A stretch of DNA of 37,158 bases from Candidatus Adlerbacteria bacterium RIFCSPHIGHO2_12_FULL_53_18 (GTDB lineage: Bacteria > Patescibacteriota > Minisyncoccia > Phycocordibacterales > SBAW01): contig MEWW01000007.1 of NCBI GenBank assembly GCA_001775475.1, forward strand, positions 6,519 through 43,676, read 5' to 3'. The notes under the pieces are model-generated. The model searched no databases and was not told where the DNA came from. It saw nothing but the letters and a program-made list of their open reading frames with translations. The translations under genes were made by a program, and so were the position numbers. This document shows positions 3,606 through 18,653 of this stretch, piece by piece (the stretch's first letter is position 1; every line of letters starts with the position of its first letter).

Positions 3606-4178
3606 TTACCACGACGAGAGCCAGCCGCGCATCATCTCAATTTCCTGCGTTTGTGAAGTAATTATATTCTCTGCGAGTTGCTCCATCTCCGGCCGTTCGG
3701 TTCCAGCAGCAAGCATCTGCGCCATCATAACTGCCATCTCATGATGAACGATCATCTGCGAAAGAAATTCTTTATCGAAATCCGCTGCTGCCAGAAGCTC
3801 ATCCAAATCCCCTTCCATCCCCTCCATACGCATCATGCTGTGGCCGGCAGCGCTTGGTGCGGCATTAAACCACTCCTGATACCACGCGGTCATATCGTTG
3901 ATTTCCCGAGTTTGTGCATCAATGATGCCCTGTGCAAGCGAGAGAATTTCCGGACGCGCCGATTTCTCAAGTGCAAGCTCCGCCATCTCAATTGCCCCCT
4001 CGTGGTGCGGGATCATCTGGTCAATAAAATGCTGATCGATACCGTCACTTACTCCCATCATGGATGCCGGTCCCATCATATTAGAACCCGTGGGTCCCAA
4101 GAATGTAGGCGCCACAACAATGCCTATAAGCACACCGAGAATAAGCCCGCCAAGTCCTATCGTTATAGAAGAGTTCAT
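3606..4178 (-). CDS. DUF305 family protein, membrane anchored
   Basis: A 190-aa protein with an N-terminal hydrophobic anchor (about 5-30, IGLGGLILGVLIGIVVAPTF) and then two related His/Met-rich units: DQMIPHHEGAIEMAELAL and SQMIVHHEMAVMMAQMLA. The paired M-I-x-H-H-E motif is diagnostic of DUF305, a ferritin-like helical family common in copper and silver resistance loci. The repeated HH and Met residues suggest metal binding outside the cytoplasm; that is family-based inference. It is embedded in a cluster with a P1B ATPase and a CsoR regulator, which strengthens the metal role. The spacing of 14 nt to the next gene and 38 nt to the previous one fits an operon. Confidence 0.92.
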   Translation of the reverse strand: MNSSITIGLGGLILGVLIGIVVAPTFLGPTGSNMMGPASMMGVSDGIDQHFIDQMIPHHEGAIEMAELALEKSARPEILSLAQGIIDAQTREINDMTAWYQEWFNAAPSAAGHSMMRMEGMEGDLDELLAAADFDKEFLSQMIVHHEMAVMMAQMLAAGTERPEMEQLAENIITSQTQEIEMMRGWLSSW

Positions 4179-4216
4179 AAGTATATTGTTAGTATATAAC
4201 TCAATATAGCACGTTG

Positions 4217-4630
4217 TTAATACGAGATTTCTATCACGTCGCCATCCTGCATACGATAGTTTTCGAATTCGGAACTTTCTATTCCGTTGACCATCATTGA
4301 TCTGGCGGTACCAAAGTTCTTATCCCATACATTGAAGAATTTCTGTAGGGCAAGATCACTTTTTGTAACTCGCCCGCCAAACTCCATGTGGACGAGCCCC
4401 GGTTCATCGTCGTGCGTATGTATAGGGTTGTGCACCGCGCCAAGTCCCATATTTGCAGGAATCTCTACTTCTTCTCCATCAACACGGACTGTGACCTTGG
4501 CATGCCAATGCAGACCATTCTGTGAGAGAATTTCCCCCTGTTCTGCCGGAGATGATTGTGGCATATACCCCAAAGCTCCGATTGCTGCGACAAAGAGCGC
4601 AATAATTCCTAGCGTATAGATTGGTTTCAT
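4217..4630 (-). CDS. Small anchored His-rich protein of the metal island (HWHA/HTHD family, function unknown)
   Basis: A 137-aa protein with an N-terminal signal or anchor helix (about 5-22, LGIIALFVAAIGALGYM) and an exported domain. The motifs GLHWHAKV, EIPANMGLG, PIHTHDDEPGLVHMEF and FFNVWDKNFG are visible. The dense histidines (HWH, HTHD, VHME) look like a metal site. The C-terminal part (VNGIESSEFENYRMQDGDVI) resembles a small beta-grasp-like tail. I recognise the motif set from uncharacterised proteins of bacteria and archaea but know no assigned function. It lies 11 nt downstream of the dsbA-like gene and 38 nt upstream of the DUF305 gene, so a role in extracytoplasmic copper handling is a reasonable inference, not a demonstrated one. 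Confidence 0.82.
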   Translation of the reverse strand: MKPIYTLGIIALFVAAIGALGYMPQSSPAEQGEILSQNGLHWHAKVTVRVDGEEVEIPANMGLGAVHNPIHTHDDEPGLVHMEFGGRVTKSDLALQKFFNVWDKNFGTARSMMVNGIESSEFENYRMQDGDVIEISY

Positions 4631-4641
4631 AATTATCCTTG

Positions 4642-5352
4642 TTAGTTTTTAGTGAGGGCCGCTTCAATAGCCTGCCTAAACACTGCGTACGGCTGTGCAC
4701 CTTCGACCAGCTGCTTACCTACTATTGAACCGGGAGTGCCGCTGATGCCGAGCGCCGCGCCCTCGGCCTTGTCAGCGTCCATTTCTTTCTGATATTCATC
4801 TCCTTTTGATTTCACCAGAGTGGCGACTTTGCCCGTATCGCTCGCGCCAAGAACATTTGTCGTTATTGAAGTGATTTTAGCTTCAGTCGCCCAGCCGGAA
4901 TTTTCTTGGCCCTGATTATCGTATACGGCCTTGTGCCATAGATAGAATTTATCGGGCGCGACTTCCCACACAGCACTAGAGTACTGCCCCAGCGCCTGTG
5001 AGTCGGGGCCGAGGAATTGAAAATCCTTGAAGACTATTTTTACCTTGCCGGTGTCCACGTAGTCCTTGATGATCTGCGGCATTGCCCCCTGCTCATGGCG
5101 CTGGCAAAATGGACATTGATAGTCGTACCAATACGCAATAGTTACAGGCGCATTGGCATTGCCGATAAACGGTTCCCCTTCTGTTCTTACTCTGCTTATA
5201 TCAACATCAATAGCTGCCGGTTGCTCTGGGTTTGCCGCTACGGGCCCTGTAGGCTGCTTGTTTGTGAATATGACCGCGCCCGCGATGATAACTCCTGCGA
5301 TGATAATTGAGACCGATGGTGATAGGTTAAATTTTGATAGTTGAGCTTCCAT
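4642..5352 (-). CDS. DsbA-like thiol:disulfide oxidoreductase, membrane anchored
   Basis: A 236-aa thioredoxin-fold protein. An N-terminal hydrophobic segment (about 13-30, VSIIIAGVIIAGAVIFTN) anchors it outside the membrane. The catalytic motif CPFC lies within YWYDYQCPFCQRHE (about residue 80). The cis-proline loop is GISGTPGSIV near the C terminus, and between them is the helical insertion typical of DsbA. It would oxidise or isomerise thiols in exported proteins. In this cluster likely clients are the Cys-rich small membrane proteins, although that is inference. The upstream 62-nt gap contains a nested inverted repeat, so expression may be adjusted separately from the genes before it. Confidence 0.92.
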   Translation of the reverse strand: MEAQLSKFNLSPSVSIIIAGVIIAGAVIFTNKQPTGPVAANPEQPAAIDVDISRVRTEGEPFIGNANAPVTIAYWYDYQCPFCQRHEQGAMPQIIKDYVDTGKVKIVFKDFQFLGPDSQALGQYSSAVWEVAPDKFYLWHKAVYDNQGQENSGWATEAKITSITTNVLGASDTGKVATLVKSKGDEYQKEMDADKAEGAALGISGTPGSIVGKQLVEGAQPYAVFRQAIEAALTKN

Positions 5353-5362
5353 ACGTAATGTA

Positions 5363-5412
5363 AGGTTGATAGGGATAAAGAGCGCGGGCGTCAGTCACCG
5401 CGGAATCAACCT
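5363..5412 (-). promoter_or_regulatory. Nested inverted repeat in the leader of the dsbA-like gene
   Basis: Outer arms AGGTTGAT (5363-5370) and ATCAACCT (5405-5412) are perfect complements. They enclose inner arms CGCGG (5383-5387) and CCGCG (5398-5402). It fills most of the 62-nt gap inside the metal operon. There is no T-run after it on the minus strand, so it is not an ordinary terminator. It may be a transcript-stabilising or processing hairpin. Confidence 0.45.
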
Positions 5413-5415
5413 AAC

Positions 5416-5811
5416 TTAAAAAATCTTTGGATGCATTAATCCGCGAGCAATAAAGCGTTGCAGAGAATCATGTCCTCGAACTTCCAGATCGTAAGAGATG
5501 AGGACAGGCTGGGGCGATGGGTGAAGGAGCCACAGGTACTGACTAAAACCAAGCACAAAAAGCAGTGCAAAGAGCAGCAGTAACAACATCACCGCACTCT
5601 GCACCGGGATCGCAGCAACAAGATTTTGCCAAGCGCTCAGGTGTTCAAGCGGATTCATATTGCACATGGCGGTATTATGTCCCATGAGTGCGCAGCCACC
5701 TATATCCTCCATGCTATGGCCCATCATCATGCCGGAATACAAAGCGCCAGTCGCCCCCACGAGCAAAAAAGTGGTGATGATTATGCTGGTGAGTAATTTT
5801 CCGAGATGCAT
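5416..5811 (-). CDS. Small two-helix Cys/His membrane protein A of the metal island
   Basis: A 131-aa protein of unknown function. It has a membrane helix at about 8-26 and a short exported loop rich in Met, His and Cys (MMMGHSMEDIGGC, then C50, H57, WQN at 61-63). A second helix spans about 68-93 (VMLLLLLFALLFVLGFSQYL), followed by a basic tail. The loop pattern GC-x9-C-x6-H-x3-WQN recurs with nearly the same spacing in the 104-aa protein encoded at 6228-6542, so the two are paralogues. The ligands fit soft-metal binding at the outer membrane face. It is preceded by the DUF302 gene (14 nt) and followed by the dsbA-like gene, which could oxidise its cysteine pair. Confidence 0.82.
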   Translation of the reverse strand: MHLGKLLTSIIITTFLLVGATGALYSGMMMGHSMEDIGGCALMGHNTAMCNMNPLEHLSAWQNLVAAIPVQSAVMLLLLLFALLFVLGFSQYLWLLHPSPQPVLISYDLEVRGHDSLQRFIARGLMHPKIF

Positions 5812-5825
5812 AGAGTAATTATAAG

Positions 5826-6209
5826 CTACTTTGCGTTGTTGATTATGGTCTGAACTATGCGGTCGATTTCTGCTGGCATGTCTCCCAAATCGGCATTCGG
5901 AAAAAATTGGGGTAGGACAACAGGCCGCATGCCGGAAATGTACGTCTGGCCGTCTTTTACATACACGTTGATTTTACACGGCATGCAAAGTCCTATCTTG
6001 ATGTCCGCTTTCAAAAAATCATTGGCGAATTTCGCGTTGCAAAACTCGATGATTTTAAATGGTTCCCGTACAAACCCCTTCTCGGTCAAAGTCTTCTGTA
6101 CATCATGAACATATAAAACCCGCATGCCCGCTTCGGCAATTTTGTCTTGTGCGCTTTTAACCGCCTCGTCAAAAGCCTTCGTTGTCTTTACGGTGTAATC
6201 GAATGTCAT
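5826..6209 (-). CDS. DUF302 domain protein
   Basis: A 127-aa protein that is essentially one DUF302 domain. Visible family features are the IIEFCNAKFANDFL helix, the GLCMPCKINVYV strand with a CxxC pair, and the C-terminal NADLGDMPAEIDRIVQTII. No signal peptide is apparent, so it is probably cytoplasmic. DUF302 proteins are small alpha/beta proteins often found near redox or heavy-metal genes; their biochemical role is not established. The three cysteines could bind metal. It lies between the two paralogous small membrane-protein genes (14 nt to the next, 18 nt from the previous), inside the island headed by csoR and the P1B ATPase. Confidence 0.9.
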   Translation of the reverse strand: MTFDYTVKTTKAFDEAVKSAQDKIAEAGMRVLYVHDVQKTLTEKGFVREPFKIIEFCNAKFANDFLKADIKIGLCMPCKINVYVKDGQTYISGMRPVVLPQFFPNADLGDMPAEIDRIVQTIINNAK

Positions 6210-6227
6210 ACGTTCAAGCAGACCGTA

Positions 6228-6542
6228 TCATATCCGCAAACCAATCCTTAGTCCATTAGATAATTTCACCACCTCTCCCGCGAGGGCTGCAAGACGGGTA
6301 ACAAGAAATAACGCGAGCGCAACTACTACAAGGATCTCGACAACTATTGCCAAAAGCGCATTCTGCCAGTGCCCAACGTGGACAAGCACCTCTGCACATA
6401 CCACTGATAGGGGCGACAACGATGCACAGCCTGCCTCATGCTCGTGGGGAGATAGTGCAACCATCGCATAGAGCCCAAATACCGCCGCAAAGATAAATGC
6501 GAGCAAAAGTACGGGGGCAAGCTGTCTACTAAGAGCGATCAT
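6228..6542 (-). CDS. Small two-helix Cys/His membrane protein B of the metal island
   Basis: A 104-aa protein. The ORF track starts it at 6698, but that extension lies inside the ATPase gene in another frame. The ATG at 6542 overlaps the ATPase stop as ATGA, so 6542 is the likely start and translation is probably coupled. It has a helix at about 9-30, a loop PHEHEAGC (C39), C49, H55/H58 and WQN at 59-61, then a second helix at about 62-82. The loop matches the 131-aa protein at 5416-5811: the same Cys-Cys distance of ten residues and the same WQN before helix two. Function is unknown. Metal binding or delivery to or from the adjacent ATPase is inferred. Confidence 0.85.
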   Translation of the reverse strand: MIALSRQLAPVLLLAFIFAAVFGLYAMVALSPHEHEAGCASLSPLSVVCAEVLVHVGHWQNALLAIVVEILVVVALALFLVTRLAALAGEVVKLSNGLRIGLRI

Positions 6543-8431
6543 AGTGATTTGCGGCGCAAAAGTGCTGCGTTTACGGCGACAATAACAGTTGAAAGAGACA
6601 TAAACACCGCTGCGACCGCCGGCTGCAGCACAACACCCCACGCAGCAAGAGCACCAGCGGCAATAGGGAGCGCCACGACATTGTAGCCAGATGCCCAAAA
6701 GAGATTTTGAATCATTTTCGAGTACGTCAGGCGCGAGAGCCTAATGATTTTAGGAATATCGCGGGGGTCGTTGCGCACAAGGATGATGCCAGCAGACTCG
6801 ATGGCTACATTGGTGCCCGCCCCAACCGCAATACCAAGGTCTGCTTGAGTCAATGCCGGTGCGTCGTTGACGCCGTCGCCCACCATAGCGACCATCTCAC
6901 CCTTGCTCTGCAAGAGTTTTACTTTGTTCACCTTGTCCTCTGGGCGCACGCGAGCAAAAAATTCCTCTATGCCAAGTTCCGATGCCACCTCTCGCGCAAC
7001 CACCTCCGAGTCCCCGGTAATCATTGCAATATGAAGTCCCATATCGCGTAGTGCTTCGACCGCTTCTTTTGCCTCCGGTCGAGGCGTGTCTGCAACCGCG
7101 ATAGTACCCAACACCTCTCCGTTAACTTCGACCACAATATCCGCGCCACCGCGATGACCGACAAAGATTTGCCTCCCGCCGACATCTGCCTGCGCACCGG
7201 CACCAGGGATGCGTTTAAAATTTACCGCTTCCGGCACAACAAGACTGCGTTTCTGTGCCTCAGCGATAACTGCCTTGCCTATCGGGTGCTCCGAGTGCGC
7301 CTCTACCGCGGCGGCAAGAGCAAGTGCCTCGTCGGAGTTTGAATGCGTAACAGAGAACTTGCCTGCAGTAAGCGTGCCTGTCTTGTCAAAGAGCACGGTC
7401 GTGACGTTGCGCGCCGCCTCGAGTGCGAGGCGGCGTTTAACAAAGAAACCGTTTTTTGCTGCCATCGTGGTTGAGATAGAGGCGACAAGTGGGATTGCGA
7501 GCCCAAGCGCGTGCGGACAGGCAATGACAAGCACGGCAACTAGGCGCTCAACTGAAAAACCAAAGCTTTCCCCTACCATCACCCACACAACAAACGTAAT
7601 TGCACCAGCACCAACCGCAAGCAAGGTTAGATAAAACGCCGCCCGATCGGAGAGAAGCTGCAGGCGAGACTTTGAACTTTCTGCCTCTGCTACTAAACGC
7701 ATGACACCGGCAAGAAAAGTGCTTTCCCCTATCTTTTCTATCCGTATCGTGAGACTTCCATCTCCGTTTATTGCTCCAGCCACCACTTCGTCTCCTGTTT
7801 TCTTTTGGACCGGCCGCGACTCTCCGGTAATGAGTGCTTCATCCAATTCTGATTCACCTTCCACAATTATTCCGTCGGCCGGCACTTTTGCCCCAGGACG
7901 AACCAGCGCAATGTCACCCTGTCGCACATCACTAAGAGAAACGACTACTGTTTTGCCTTCACGCACAACCTCCGCTGTGTCTGGCAGCAGTTTAGCGAGT
8001 TCTCGCAATGCCCCCTTAGCACCCTGCACCGCGCGCATCTCAACATAGTGGCCTATGAGCATGACGGCGATCAGGGTCGAAAGCTCCCAAAAAAGTGTCA
8101 TGCCACTGCCGAACAACACAGAGCCCACACTGTAGAAGTATGCAGCGGAGATCGCAAGTGCAATCAGGGTCATCATGCCGGGAAGCCGCGCCTTGAGTTC
8201 GCTCAACGCACCTCTAAGGAATACAAGTCCGCCGTAGAAAAAAACTATGGAGCCGAGGACAAGCTGCAGATACGGTGAACCCGCAAATGTGGGCGCGCTC
8301 CATCCAACTAATGCCTCCGGCAAATCGGAGTAAAGAATGATGGGTACCGTGAGAACAAGCACCACCCAGAACTTTTTTAAAAAATCCTCGGTGTGATGTC
8401 CTGCGTGTTTATCATGTGATCCATGATCCAT
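6539..8431 (-). CDS. Heavy-metal P1B-type ATPase, CPH (CopB-like) subtype
   Basis: A 630-aa metal-exporting ATPase. The order is: a His-rich N-terminal tail (MDHGSHDKHAGHH), two extra helices typical of P1B pumps, actuator motif TGES, the membrane metal motif CPH (VIACPHALGLAIP), phosphorylation motif DKTGTLT, the P1B-specific HP dipeptide (SEHPIGKA), hinge TGD and GDGVNDAPAL. There is no N-terminal ferredoxin-like HMA domain; the His tail takes its place. CPH rather than CPC, with a His-rich N terminus, is the pattern of CopB-type pumps associated with Cu(II)/Cu(I)/Ag(I), so copper is the best guess. It begins one base after the csoR stop, and its stop overlaps the start of the next gene. 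Confidence 0.95.
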   Translation of the reverse strand: MDHGSHDKHAGHHTEDFLKKFWVVLVLTVPIILYSDLPEALVGWSAPTFAGSPYLQLVLGSIVFFYGGLVFLRGALSELKARLPGMMTLIALAISAAYFYSVGSVLFGSGMTLFWELSTLIAVMLIGHYVEMRAVQGAKGALRELAKLLPDTAEVVREGKTVVVSLSDVRQGDIALVRPGAKVPADGIIVEGESELDEALITGESRPVQKKTGDEVVAGAINGDGSLTIRIEKIGESTFLAGVMRLVAEAESSKSRLQLLSDRAAFYLTLLAVGAGAITFVVWVMVGESFGFSVERLVAVLVIACPHALGLAIPLVASISTTMAAKNGFFVKRRLALEAARNVTTVLFDKTGTLTAGKFSVTHSNSDEALALAAAVEAHSEHPIGKAVIAEAQKRSLVVPEAVNFKRIPGAGAQADVGGRQIFVGHRGGADIVVEVNGEVLGTIAVADTPRPEAKEAVEALRDMGLHIAMITGDSEVVAREVASELGIEEFFARVRPEDKVNKVKLLQSKGEMVAMVGDGVNDAPALTQADLGIAVGAGTNVAIESAGIILVRNDPRDIPKIIRLSRLTYSKMIQNLFWASGYNVVALPIAAGALAAWGVVLQPAVAAVFMSLSTVIVAVNAALLRRKSL

Positions 8432-8432
8432 A

Positions 8433-8705
8433 TCACTTTTTCTTCTGCGCCAGCTTATACACTTTCAAAATCTCTTCGACCGCCTTTTTACTCCTCCCCG
8501 ATTTTACCTGTGCAACCACGTGGGTCGTGAGATGATTCTCAAGCATCAAATCTTCAACACCCGATAGCGCCTCCTTTATCGCGCTCGACTGTGTAATGAT
8601 GTCCACACAGTAGCGCTCGGTATCTACCATCTTTGTCAGGCCATTTAGCTGACCTTTAATGAGGCTCAGGCGTCGGAGTGCTTTTTTCTTCATGTCAGCT
8701 TTCAT
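8433..8705 (-). CDS. csoR: CsoR/RcnR family metal-sensing repressor (C-H-H type)
   Basis: A 90-aa all-helical repressor of the CsoR/DUF156 family. Family features are RRLSLIKGQLNGLTKMV, the first ligand Cys in YCVDIITQ, and the helix ENHLTTHVV. In classical CsoR the ligands are Cys-His-Cys. Here the last is His, giving Cys-His-His, as in Thermus thermophilus CsoR, which is known to respond to several metals. It is the first gene of the metal island and is followed immediately by the ATPase. A GC-rich palindrome in its promoter is the probable binding site, giving autoregulation. The start at 8705 is supported by the promoter geometry. Confidence 0.92.
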   Translation of the reverse strand: MKADMKKKALRRLSLIKGQLNGLTKMVDTERYCVDIITQSSAIKEALSGVEDLMLENHLTTHVVAQVKSGRSKKAVEEILKVYKLAQKKK

Positions 8706-16774: not shown

Positions 16775-18442
16775 TCAAGTGCGTCTAGACCGATTGACGG
16801 CACTCGCAAGCGCCAGGAGTGAAGCTGTCGGAATATCGGTATTAATACCGACCCCCCACACTGCTTCGCGCCCCGGAACGGCAATGGCCACGTATGCGAT
16901 AGCTTTCGCATCCGAGCCACCGCCGATCGAACGTTCCTGATAGTCGAGGAGCGAGACCTCTATGTTGCAGGACGTAGCGAGCGCATTGGCAAATGCGTTG
17001 AGCTCGCCATTTCCGTCTCCTGCAATGAAGCGGCTGTCACCATTGATCTTGATGGTCGCTTCGAGGACTCGGCCTCCTTTGACTTTGCCAGGTACGCTGT
17101 AATGATCAATGAGCTCGATAGGATGAGCTACGTTGACATACACTTCTTCGAAAAGCTGCCGAACACGTTCCGGCAACAATTCTCCGCCTGTTTCCTCTGC
17201 GGCCTTCTGCACGAAAGTCGCAAAGTCCACAAGCAGCGGCCGCGGGAGTTCGACGCCGTAAACGTCACGCATGATATAGGCGACACCACCTTTGCCCGAC
17301 TGGCTGTTAACGCGTACTGGACGATATTCCCGTCCGACATGGGCCGGATTGAAGGCAAGATACGGGACCTCAAATATAGGGCTGTTCGAGATTTCCATTG
17401 CCCGTGTCCCTTTGTTGATGGCGTCCTGGTGCGAACCAGAAAATGCCGTCAGCGCGAGGAGTCCAGCGTACGGATGCCTTGGATGCACTTCAATACGCGT
17501 GCATTCTTCTGCGATCCGTACGGCGCCCGGAAGATCGGACAAATCTACTTTCGGGTCTATACCCTGCGTCATCAGGTTGAGCGCGAGGGTTACGAGATCC
17601 GCGTTGCCGGTACGTTCACCATTACCGAAGAGCGTACCTTCGACGCGGTCAGCGCCAGCCAAGAGGCCGAGCTCTGTCGCGGCGACAGCACATCCGCGGT
17701 CATTGTGCGTATGCAGACTGAGAACGATAGAGTCGCGATGCGACAGGTGTCGACCCATCCATTCGATCGCGTCGGCATACTTGTTAGGCGTCGACATCTC
17801 CACCGTTGCAGGCAGATTGATGATCGCTTTGTTCTCCAGAGTCGGTTTCCATATGTCGAGCACTTGGTTACAGATCTCGCAGGCGAATTTGACTTCGGTC
17901 CCTGTGAACGACTCAGGTGAGTACTCAAACGTCCATTTAGTTTTCGGTTGCTTTTCCGCGAGCTTTTTGATGAGTCGCGCGCCGGAGAGAGCGATTTGTA
18001 TAATACCCTCCTCAGATTGGCAAAAGACAACTCGGCGTTGAAGTTCAGACGTCGAATTGTACAGGTGCACGATTGCCCGAGGAACGCCTTTCAGGGCTTC
18101 GAACGTTCGTTGTATCAATTCCTCGCGCGATTGCGTGAGGACTTGGATAGTGACGTCGTCAGGAATCCGATTCTCCTCAATCAACGTCCGAACGAATGTG
18201 AACTCGATCTCGGAGGACGCCGGGAACCCAACCTCGATCTCTTTGAAGCCGATCTTCACGAGCAGATTGAACATCTGCAGTTTCTTCTCGACACCCATCG
18301 GCTCGATGAGTGCCTGGTTGCCGTCGCGCAGATCCACCGCGCACCAGATGGGTGCCTTGGCAAGTCTGCCATTTGGCCACGTGCGGTCCGGCAGCTGTAC
18401 CGTCGGGAATGGACGATATTGGTTGAAGGGCATCGTCGTCAT
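16775..18442 (-). CDS. leuA: 2-isopropylmalate synthase, single gene with leucine attenuator
   Basis: A 555-aa enzyme that condenses acetyl-CoA with 2-ketoisovalerate, the first committed step of leucine synthesis. The catalytic TIM barrel (about 30-330) shows APIWCAVDLRDGNQAL and the metal motif HTHNDRG. The C-terminal LeuA dimer/regulatory domain (about 435-550) contains GNGELNAFANAL and GGGSDAKAIAYVAI, the leucine-feedback region. The N-terminal TWPNGRLAKAPIWC style is that of the long LeuA group (TIGR00970) common in Actinobacteria and some Proteobacteria. A strong Shine-Dalgarno (GAGGAG) precedes ATG 18442. No leuB, leuC or leuD is nearby. A biosynthetic orphan with its own attenuator and terminator in a CPR-like genome suggests acquisition as a unit. 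Confidence 0.95.
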   Translation of the reverse strand: MTTMPFNQYRPFPTVQLPDRTWPNGRLAKAPIWCAVDLRDGNQALIEPMGVEKKLQMFNLLVKIGFKEIEVGFPASSEIEFTFVRTLIEENRIPDDVTIQVLTQSREELIQRTFEALKGVPRAIVHLYNSTSELQRRVVFCQSEEGIIQIALSGARLIKKLAEKQPKTKWTFEYSPESFTGTEVKFACEICNQVLDIWKPTLENKAIINLPATVEMSTPNKYADAIEWMGRHLSHRDSIVLSLHTHNDRGCAVAATELGLLAGADRVEGTLFGNGERTGNADLVTLALNLMTQGIDPKVDLSDLPGAVRIAEECTRIEVHPRHPYAGLLALTAFSGSHQDAINKGTRAMEISNSPIFEVPYLAFNPAHVGREYRPVRVNSQSGKGGVAYIMRDVYGVELPRPLLVDFATFVQKAAEETGGELLPERVRQLFEEVYVNVAHPIELIDHYSVPGKVKGGRVLEATIKINGDSRFIAGDGNGELNAFANALATSCNIEVSLLDYQERSIGGGSDAKAIAYVAIAVPGREAVWGVGINTDIPTASLLALASAVNRSRRT

Positions 18443-18489
18443 AACTTCTCCTCAGGGTTATCGTGAACGAACTGTCAAAGAACAGGGCT

Positions 18490-18522
18490 AAACAACAAGG
18501 CCCTCCGGGTGGAGGGCCTTGT
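18490..18522 (-). terminator. Attenuator terminator in the leuA leader
   Basis: A perfect 12-bp stem, ACAAGGCCCTCC (18522-18511) and GGAGGGCCTTGT (18506-18495), with loop ACCC and tail TGTTT. It sits between the leader peptide stop and the leuA ribosome binding site. The tail is only moderately T-rich. Confidence 0.85.
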
Positions 18523-18583
18523 GTGTATCTGGTTTCGTTAGAATCTAGACACAAGCAAATCCTCCACCCTGAGTAAGGAGGAG
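18507..18583 (-). promoter_or_regulatory. Leucine attenuator: competing antiterminator and pause pairings
   Basis: GGGTGGAGG (18569-18561) is perfectly complementary to CCTCCACCC (18515-18507), which is the 5' arm and loop of the terminator. A second block, CTTGTGT (18555-18549) with ACACAAG (18524-18518), extends this antiterminator. The Leu-codon segment TCCTCC (18582-18577) pairs with GGAGGA (18565-18560) as the alternative hairpin. This gives the classic 1:2, 2:3 and 3:4 arrangement. Confidence 0.82.
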
Positions 18584-18619
18584 TCCGAGGAGAACATTAG
18601 ATTGCTTGTTGCCCGACAT
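18545..18619 (-). CDS. leuA leader peptide (attenuation peptide)
   Basis: A 24-codon ORF beginning MSGNKQSNVLLGLLLTQGGG. It contains five leucine codons in six positions (CTC CTC GGA CTC CTC CTT), far more than chance. The Leu run lies directly on the RNA segment that pairs with the pause/antiterminator region, and the TAG is at 18547-18545, just before the terminator. A ribosome stalled at the Leu codons would free the antiterminator; one reaching the stop would allow termination. The promoter places the transcription start on the A of its ATG, so it is probably translated without a leader or Shine-Dalgarno. It is too short for the ORF track. Confidence 0.85.
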   Translation of the reverse strand: MSGNKQSNVLLGLLLTQGGGFACV

Positions 18620-18625
18620 GTTTTG

Positions 18626-18653
18626 AGAATAACGTCTTATATAAATTTGTCAA
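18626..18653 (-). promoter_or_regulatory. leuA operon promoter
   Basis: TTGACA (18653-18648, perfect consensus), a 16-nt AT-rich spacer and TATTCT (18631-18626). The predicted +1 is 18619, the A of the leader-peptide ATG. Confidence 0.75.

Follow-up and report, generated by a model that had tools for sequence, protein, structure and literature searches.

Transcription attenuation through a leader peptide is a textbook mechanism. Bacteria of the patescibacterial type are regarded as having lost most of their amino-acid synthesis, are mostly uncultivated, and little is known of how their genes are regulated. The locus described here, on contig MEWW01000007.1 of a Candidatus Adlerbacteria genome, raises two questions: whether a leucine-sensing attenuator stands in front of leuA in such an organism, and what benefit the control of this gene could bring. 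The locus lies within a stretch of 37,158 nt, all of which was analysed and is called the window. A leucine attenuator had been proposed at this site from the letters alone (the original prediction), and the proposal was followed up by folding, by comparison with related genomes and by searches for known RNA families.

Anatomy and folding of the leuA leader

A sigma-70 promoter, a leader ORF, a terminator and a competing antiterminator are all present on the minus strand between 18653 and 18488, upstream of leuA (Table 1). The original prediction had listed a consensus promoter, a leader of 24 codons, five Leu codons in six positions and a 12-bp terminator, and each of these was read again in the sequence. 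The leader ATG is found 6 nt past the end of the -10 box. The leucine run (LLGLLL) is placed 5' of strand 2 and the leader stop codon directly 3' of it, so that a ribosome terminating there would cover strand 2, translation of the leader being predicted. Strand 1 can form a helix with strand 2b in the window, and this helix is not found in every relative. The terminator stem is GC-rich, with ACAAGGCCCTCC and GGAGGGCCTTGT as its arms; the U-tract after it is poor and interrupted (UGUUGUUUAG), and the terminator was absent from the output of a simple terminator scan.

Table 1. Coordinates of leuA and of the elements of its leader region (positions in the window)
Feature	Position	Strand	Basis or remark
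Sigma-70-type promoter, TTGACA-16-TATTCT	18626..18653	-	10/12 matches; TTGACA 18653-18648, spacer 16 nt, TATTCT 18631-18626
Leader peptide ORF, MSGNKQSNVLLGLLLTQGGGFACV and stop	18545..18619	-	24 codons, the coordinates including the stop; sequence and homologous leaders
Control codons CTC CTC GGA CTC CTC CTT (Leu Leu Gly Leu Leu Leu)	18575..18592	-	Sequence
Strand 1, ACAAGCAA	18602..18609	-	Partner of strand 2b when ribosome-free; 8-bp helix here
Strand 2, GGGTGGAGG (2a) and TTGCTTGTGTC (2b)	18548..18569	-	5' side of antiterminator; GGTGGAG invariant in 14 leaders; covariation
Strand 3, ACAAGGCCCTCCACCC	18507..18522	-	Common to 3' side of antiterminator and 5' arm of terminator
Terminator hairpin, strands 3:4, 12 bp	18495..18522	-	-25.7 kcal/mol with flanks
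Imperfect U-rich tail TGTTTAG, 3' of terminator stem	18488..18494	-	Sequence
BoxA-like element GTTCTTTGACA, between terminator and leuA	18473..18483	-	Exact match
leuA, 2-isopropylmalate synthase (TIGR00970 / PRK03739 type)	16775..18442	-	Catalytic, IPMS_D2 and LeuA_dimer (leucine feedback) domains

Folding of the attenuator RNA gave a z-score of -4.9, and none of 200 shuffled sequences was equally stable. The minimum free energy structure of the full RNA contains a hairpin of CUCCUC with GGAGG, which agrees with the alternative hairpin previously placed on the Leu codons. The antiterminator had been described as a 9-nt pairing; this pairing (GGGTGGAGG with CCTCCACCC) is present and excludes the terminator, the two structures being mutually exclusive as judged from the sequence, but it understates the helix, which in the nascent RNA comprises 9 + 4 + 7 bp and a small apical part, or an interrupted helix of ~20 bp. 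With a ribosome placed on the Leu codons, nascent RNA extending to strand 3 adopted the 2:3 antiterminator structure, at -31.3 kcal/mol; with the ribosome at the stop codon the antiterminator was lost, and RNA of the same extent reached only -16.0 kcal/mol. Full-length folding by itself preferred the terminator in all ribosome states, and the switch must therefore be kinetic, as is usual for attenuators.

In the mechanism that we propose, transcription is inferred to start at or beside the leader ATG. When charged tRNA-Leu is scarce, the ribosome would stall at the Leu codons and leave strand 2 free to capture strand 3 once the latter is made; no terminator would form and leuA would be transcribed. 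When leucine is plentiful, the ribosome would reach the stop codon after strand 2 and cover that strand, strand 3 would pair with strand 4, and transcription would stop before leuA. The stalling, the efficiency of termination and the response to leucine are inferences, and no transcript, term-seq or ribosome data are at hand. With that reservation, we hold it very probable that a leucine-responsive, ribosome-mediated transcription attenuator controls leuA.

The imperfect U-tract, and a leuA start that lies ~50 nt 3' of the hairpin with a GAGGAG of its own, would also suit a leader peptide that acts on leuA translation, through reinitiation or occlusion of the start site, with the hairpin merely structural and without a role in termination. 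However, the 3:4 hairpin is strong and GC-rich, it stands well upstream of the leuA ribosome-binding site, and U-rich sequence (consensus GGCTGGTTTTGTTTT) follows it in nearly all relatives; control of translation in place of termination is accordingly rated improbable.

Conservation and covariation at related loci

The original prediction had proposed that leuA upstream regions of related genomes be aligned for conserved Leu codons and compensatory changes. Of the 11 further genomes of the order in which leuA was found, 9 have a leader of the same plan, with a Leu run, before leuA or its operon; the shared plan is a Leu-rich short ORF, the invariant GGUGGAG and then a terminator with CUUCACC or CUCCACC. 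At the two loci without a leader, leuA follows leuC-leuD directly (L056) or is preceded by an IS-like ORF (L061). When 14 leaders were submitted to RNAalifold, the 2:3 antiterminator was selected, with 90% of cells paired and both-side changes in 12 of 20 pairs; neither value was attained by any of 500 shuffles, and pairing fell to 32-48% when the partner was slid by 1-3 columns as a control. The terminator folds in all 14. The covariation counts of A3 were excluded from the evidence, as antisense matches of the same hairpins were included in them. The comparison thus came out as proposed, and with homologous leuA leaders, Leu runs and a covarying antiterminator, ribosome-mediated leucine attenuation remains the best reading of the window element.

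One genome in this set carries two attenuators with near-identical 3' halves (L053), of which one has LLGLLL before leuA and the other IIGIII before another gene.

An RNA family with interchangeable codons

The family was searched for with covariance model R1, which spans only the segment from GGUGGAG to the terminator and leaves the leader codons outside, and with model R2, built without the window. R2 recovered the window at 32.1 bits (E = 1.1e-7 in 388 kb); the window member scores below the core set, reaching 46.7 bits when it is included in the model. At E<=0.1, R1 matched 97 of the 397 genomes sampled from the order, with ~60 matches of at least 40 bits, and neither R1 nor R2 gave a match at 33 leuA loci of other phyla, those of Actinobacteria included. 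Of 42 held-out leaders, 32 have a stretch of six residues with at least four alike, in most cases Leu or Ile, against a mean of the maximum of 2.3 after shuffling.

The amino acid of the run follows the downstream gene. Leu runs precede LeuA in the window and at L051, L052, L053, L054, L055, L057, L058, L059 and L060, and LeuA of bacterial type at L126 and at L152, the latter in a genome from a different class. Ile runs precede threonine dehydratase IlvA (L057, L109), RidA-IlvA (L117, L122), citramalate synthase CimA (L040, L055, L108) and a CimA-like protein in the other class (L172); Phe runs precede prephenate dehydratase PheA, at L114 with two elements in tandem and at L170, again in the other class. 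Where a match of at least 40 bits stands directly before an amino-acid enzyme, no case of disagreement was met, and the agreement of run and gene is on these grounds established across the family at the level of sequence. Small proteins of unknown function follow many other matches, so the cognate function cannot be checked there. Weaker candidate leaders carry Met, Thr, Val or Pro, the last before ProB (L148, 27 bits). We conclude that the window element belongs to an RNA family serving Leu, Ile, Phe and probably further amino acids, which is present in many genomes of the order and, within the phylum, in at least one genome from a different class.

Two matches were discarded: L140 is a false positive that reads through an NYN-like ORF, and a minus-strand pattern match at L038 turned out to be the real L126 element read in antisense. 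Attenuator-like elements with FWHL in their leaders were also noticed in two genomes (L132:2582, L139:2639), ~430-490 nt ahead of M20 peptidases, hinting at control of amino-acid scavenging; the leader at L132 is rich in aromatic residues and has no clean run. Clusters of attenuators were seen close upstream of the 16S rRNA gene at L055, L057, L101, L108 and L117.

The short ORF could be incidental if the element belonged to some other class of cis-regulatory RNA, such as a T-box, a riboswitch or the LEU pseudoknot of Actinobacteria. Leader regions of leuA in other phyla do carry other elements, that of Actinobacteria being the LEU pseudoknot with its Leu-run ORF (PMC1262725), and weak sub-threshold Rfam matches exist for the window element. 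These matches, however, are to Phe_leader (24.8 against a gathering score of 55) and Trp_leader (22.4 against 41), which are themselves leader-peptide attenuators, and at gathering score nothing in Rfam matched the window element or 13 other family loci. A T-box covariance model did not match the window element, the family model finds no actinobacterial leuA locus, and the position, start and codon run of the ORF are kept family-wide, with the run tracking the gene. Another RNA class is thus very hard to credit, and the leader-peptide attenuator is retained.

Promoters and the interval before the controlled gene

Promoters with at least 9 of 12 matches were found at 46 of 56 family leaders, against 9% of shuffles, and in 37 of those 46 the ATG follows the end of the -10 box by 6-9 nt. 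Strong Shine-Dalgarno sites are rare among the leaders. From the closeness of -10 box and ATG and this rarity we infer that the leader ORFs are probably carried on leaderless mRNAs; the window leader mRNA, likewise, is probably leaderless or almost so.

The interval from terminator to gene contains in many members an element, GTTCTTTGA, which we take to resemble the boxA antitermination site. Such elements, with at least 9 of 11 matches, occur at 27 of 60 family loci, against 4% of shuffles.

A leuA gene without its pathway

The LeuA encoded in the window is close to the solved enzyme of M. tuberculosis and is full length, with the motifs LRDGNQ, HTHNDRG and GNGERTG intact. Within the order, leuA of this type was found in 12 of 397 genomes, the window's own included; none of 34 genomes of its genus has it, and samples of the class and of the phylum yielded no further case. 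Genome sizes in the order and phylum samples are 0.4-1.5 Mb throughout, and membership in Patescibacteria was inferred from these sizes and from kinship tables. Family searches, whose controls were positive in 14 of 14 known genomes and on which all statements of absence here rest, did not detect leuB, leuC/leuD (aconitase families), ilvC or ilvD in the window's genome. That genome (G000) is 89% complete, so the absence there is not decisive alone; of the 11 other genomes with leuA, 10 likewise yielded none of the five genes, and most of these are 91-100% complete. The exception, G298, has leuC, leuD and leuB, and ilvC and ilvD were not found there either. With these genes undetected, leuA is under inferred leucine control without its pathway: the window leuA is an orphan committed-step enzyme, and for that reason the benefit of the control is unclear.

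In a tree of LeuA sequences 10 of the other CPR proteins form one clade (support 100/100), and the window LeuA is placed on a long branch near alphaproteobacterial and actinobacterial LeuAs; one clade for all CPR LeuAs could not be rejected (p-AU 0.10 and 0.065). The origin of the gene is unresolved; if the position in the tree is real, leuA was acquired separately and put under a native attenuator. That the attenuator was imported along with leuA, from a donor among Alphaproteobacteria or Actinobacteria, is not supported, as the RNA model matches no donor-type locus. An assembly chimera is unlikely: the gene lies in the interior of a 43.7-kb contig, and its attenuator is of a family typical of the order.

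The long branch, the lack of the five pathway genes and the absence of leuA from related genomes of the genus would all be expected of a relict, in which leuA and its attenuator, left from a horizontal transfer or a lost pathway, are decaying and without present function; this is compatible with the attenuator mechanism itself. The intact enzyme, the intact and covarying attenuator, and the recurrence of orphan leuA across several families (10 other genomes, most more than 90% complete) speak against decay. A relict is on balance unlikely, though a modest chance of it has to be allowed.

Elsewhere in the window, at ~3606-8705 on the minus strand, a cluster resembling a copper island was noticed by reading only, with DUF305-like, DsbA-like thioredoxin and DUF302-like proteins, a heavy-metal P-type ATPase and a CsoR-like regulator.

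Feedback domains without a synthase

LeuA_dimer domains with no adjoining synthase domain were found at a Leu attenuator (L134:2241-2585) and at two Ile attenuators (L052:11759-12319 and L095:1217-1789), the small protein of L134 matching LeuA_dimer at E=2e-22. The idea that all small proteins after Leu attenuators are LeuA_dimer relatives was rejected, being true for some only. Neither Pfam nor the LeuA_dimer profile gave a match for group A8 (75-98 aa; L099, L102, L095 and L106; Leu attenuators) or group A9 (107-113 aa; L099, L094 and L113; Ile attenuators).

Through their attenuators, orphan committed-step enzymes and orphan feedback domains stand out as regulated, and therefore presumably useful, genes. 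As a speculation in which we place little confidence, these organisms, probable episymbionts, might employ attenuators to act on the pathway of a host instead of running their own, and when short of Leu or Ile express only a feedback-controlled committed step (LeuA, CimA or IlvA) or a lone LeuA_dimer. Were this true, an intermediate would be fed into the host pathway, or the feedback inhibition of a host enzyme would be blunted, and the finished amino acid would be taken back.

Comparison with known attenuators

The original prediction knew of no description of such control in Patescibacteria, and our literature searches, which did not cover most subscription papers, likewise returned no relevant paper linking attenuation and leader peptides to Patescibacteria, Parcubacteria or CPR. 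According to a 2010 survey, no leader-peptide system outside Proteobacteria and Actinobacteria was known before its own case in Firmicutes, the histidine leaders of Bacillus hisS/hisZ (PMC2965389); the leucine-rich attenuator peptide of the S. aureus branched-chain amino-acid operon (PMC5794164) is a further example outside those two phyla, also in Firmicutes.

The actinobacterial LEU element likewise has a short ORF with a Leu run upstream of leuA of the same type; it folds into a pseudoknot, and in its base stem the Leu codons are paired to the Shine-Dalgarno box of leuA (PMC1262725). The window appears to differ in having a putative intrinsic terminator, weak in its U-tract, and an antiterminator, with the hairpin upstream of the Shine-Dalgarno sequence. 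The new family is like the enterobacterial leu, ilv, his, thr, phe and trp attenuators (RF00512 Leu_leader, RF01859 Phe_leader, RF00513 Trp_leader) in its leader ORF of cognate codons, in the exclusive 2:3 antiterminator and 3:4 terminator, and in its placement before the cognate biosynthetic gene. It differs from them in that one scaffold (GGUGGAG...UUGCUYGUG / CAAGCCAGCUCUUCACC) is combined with Leu, Ile or Phe codons, in leaders that begin so close to the -10 box, and in a host lineage with reduced pathways. The mechanism is thus known in kind, and the RNA family, the lineage and the orphan targets appear to be new; a family with exchangeable codons offers a direct, testable read-out of the amino acids that these mostly uncultivated organisms sense.
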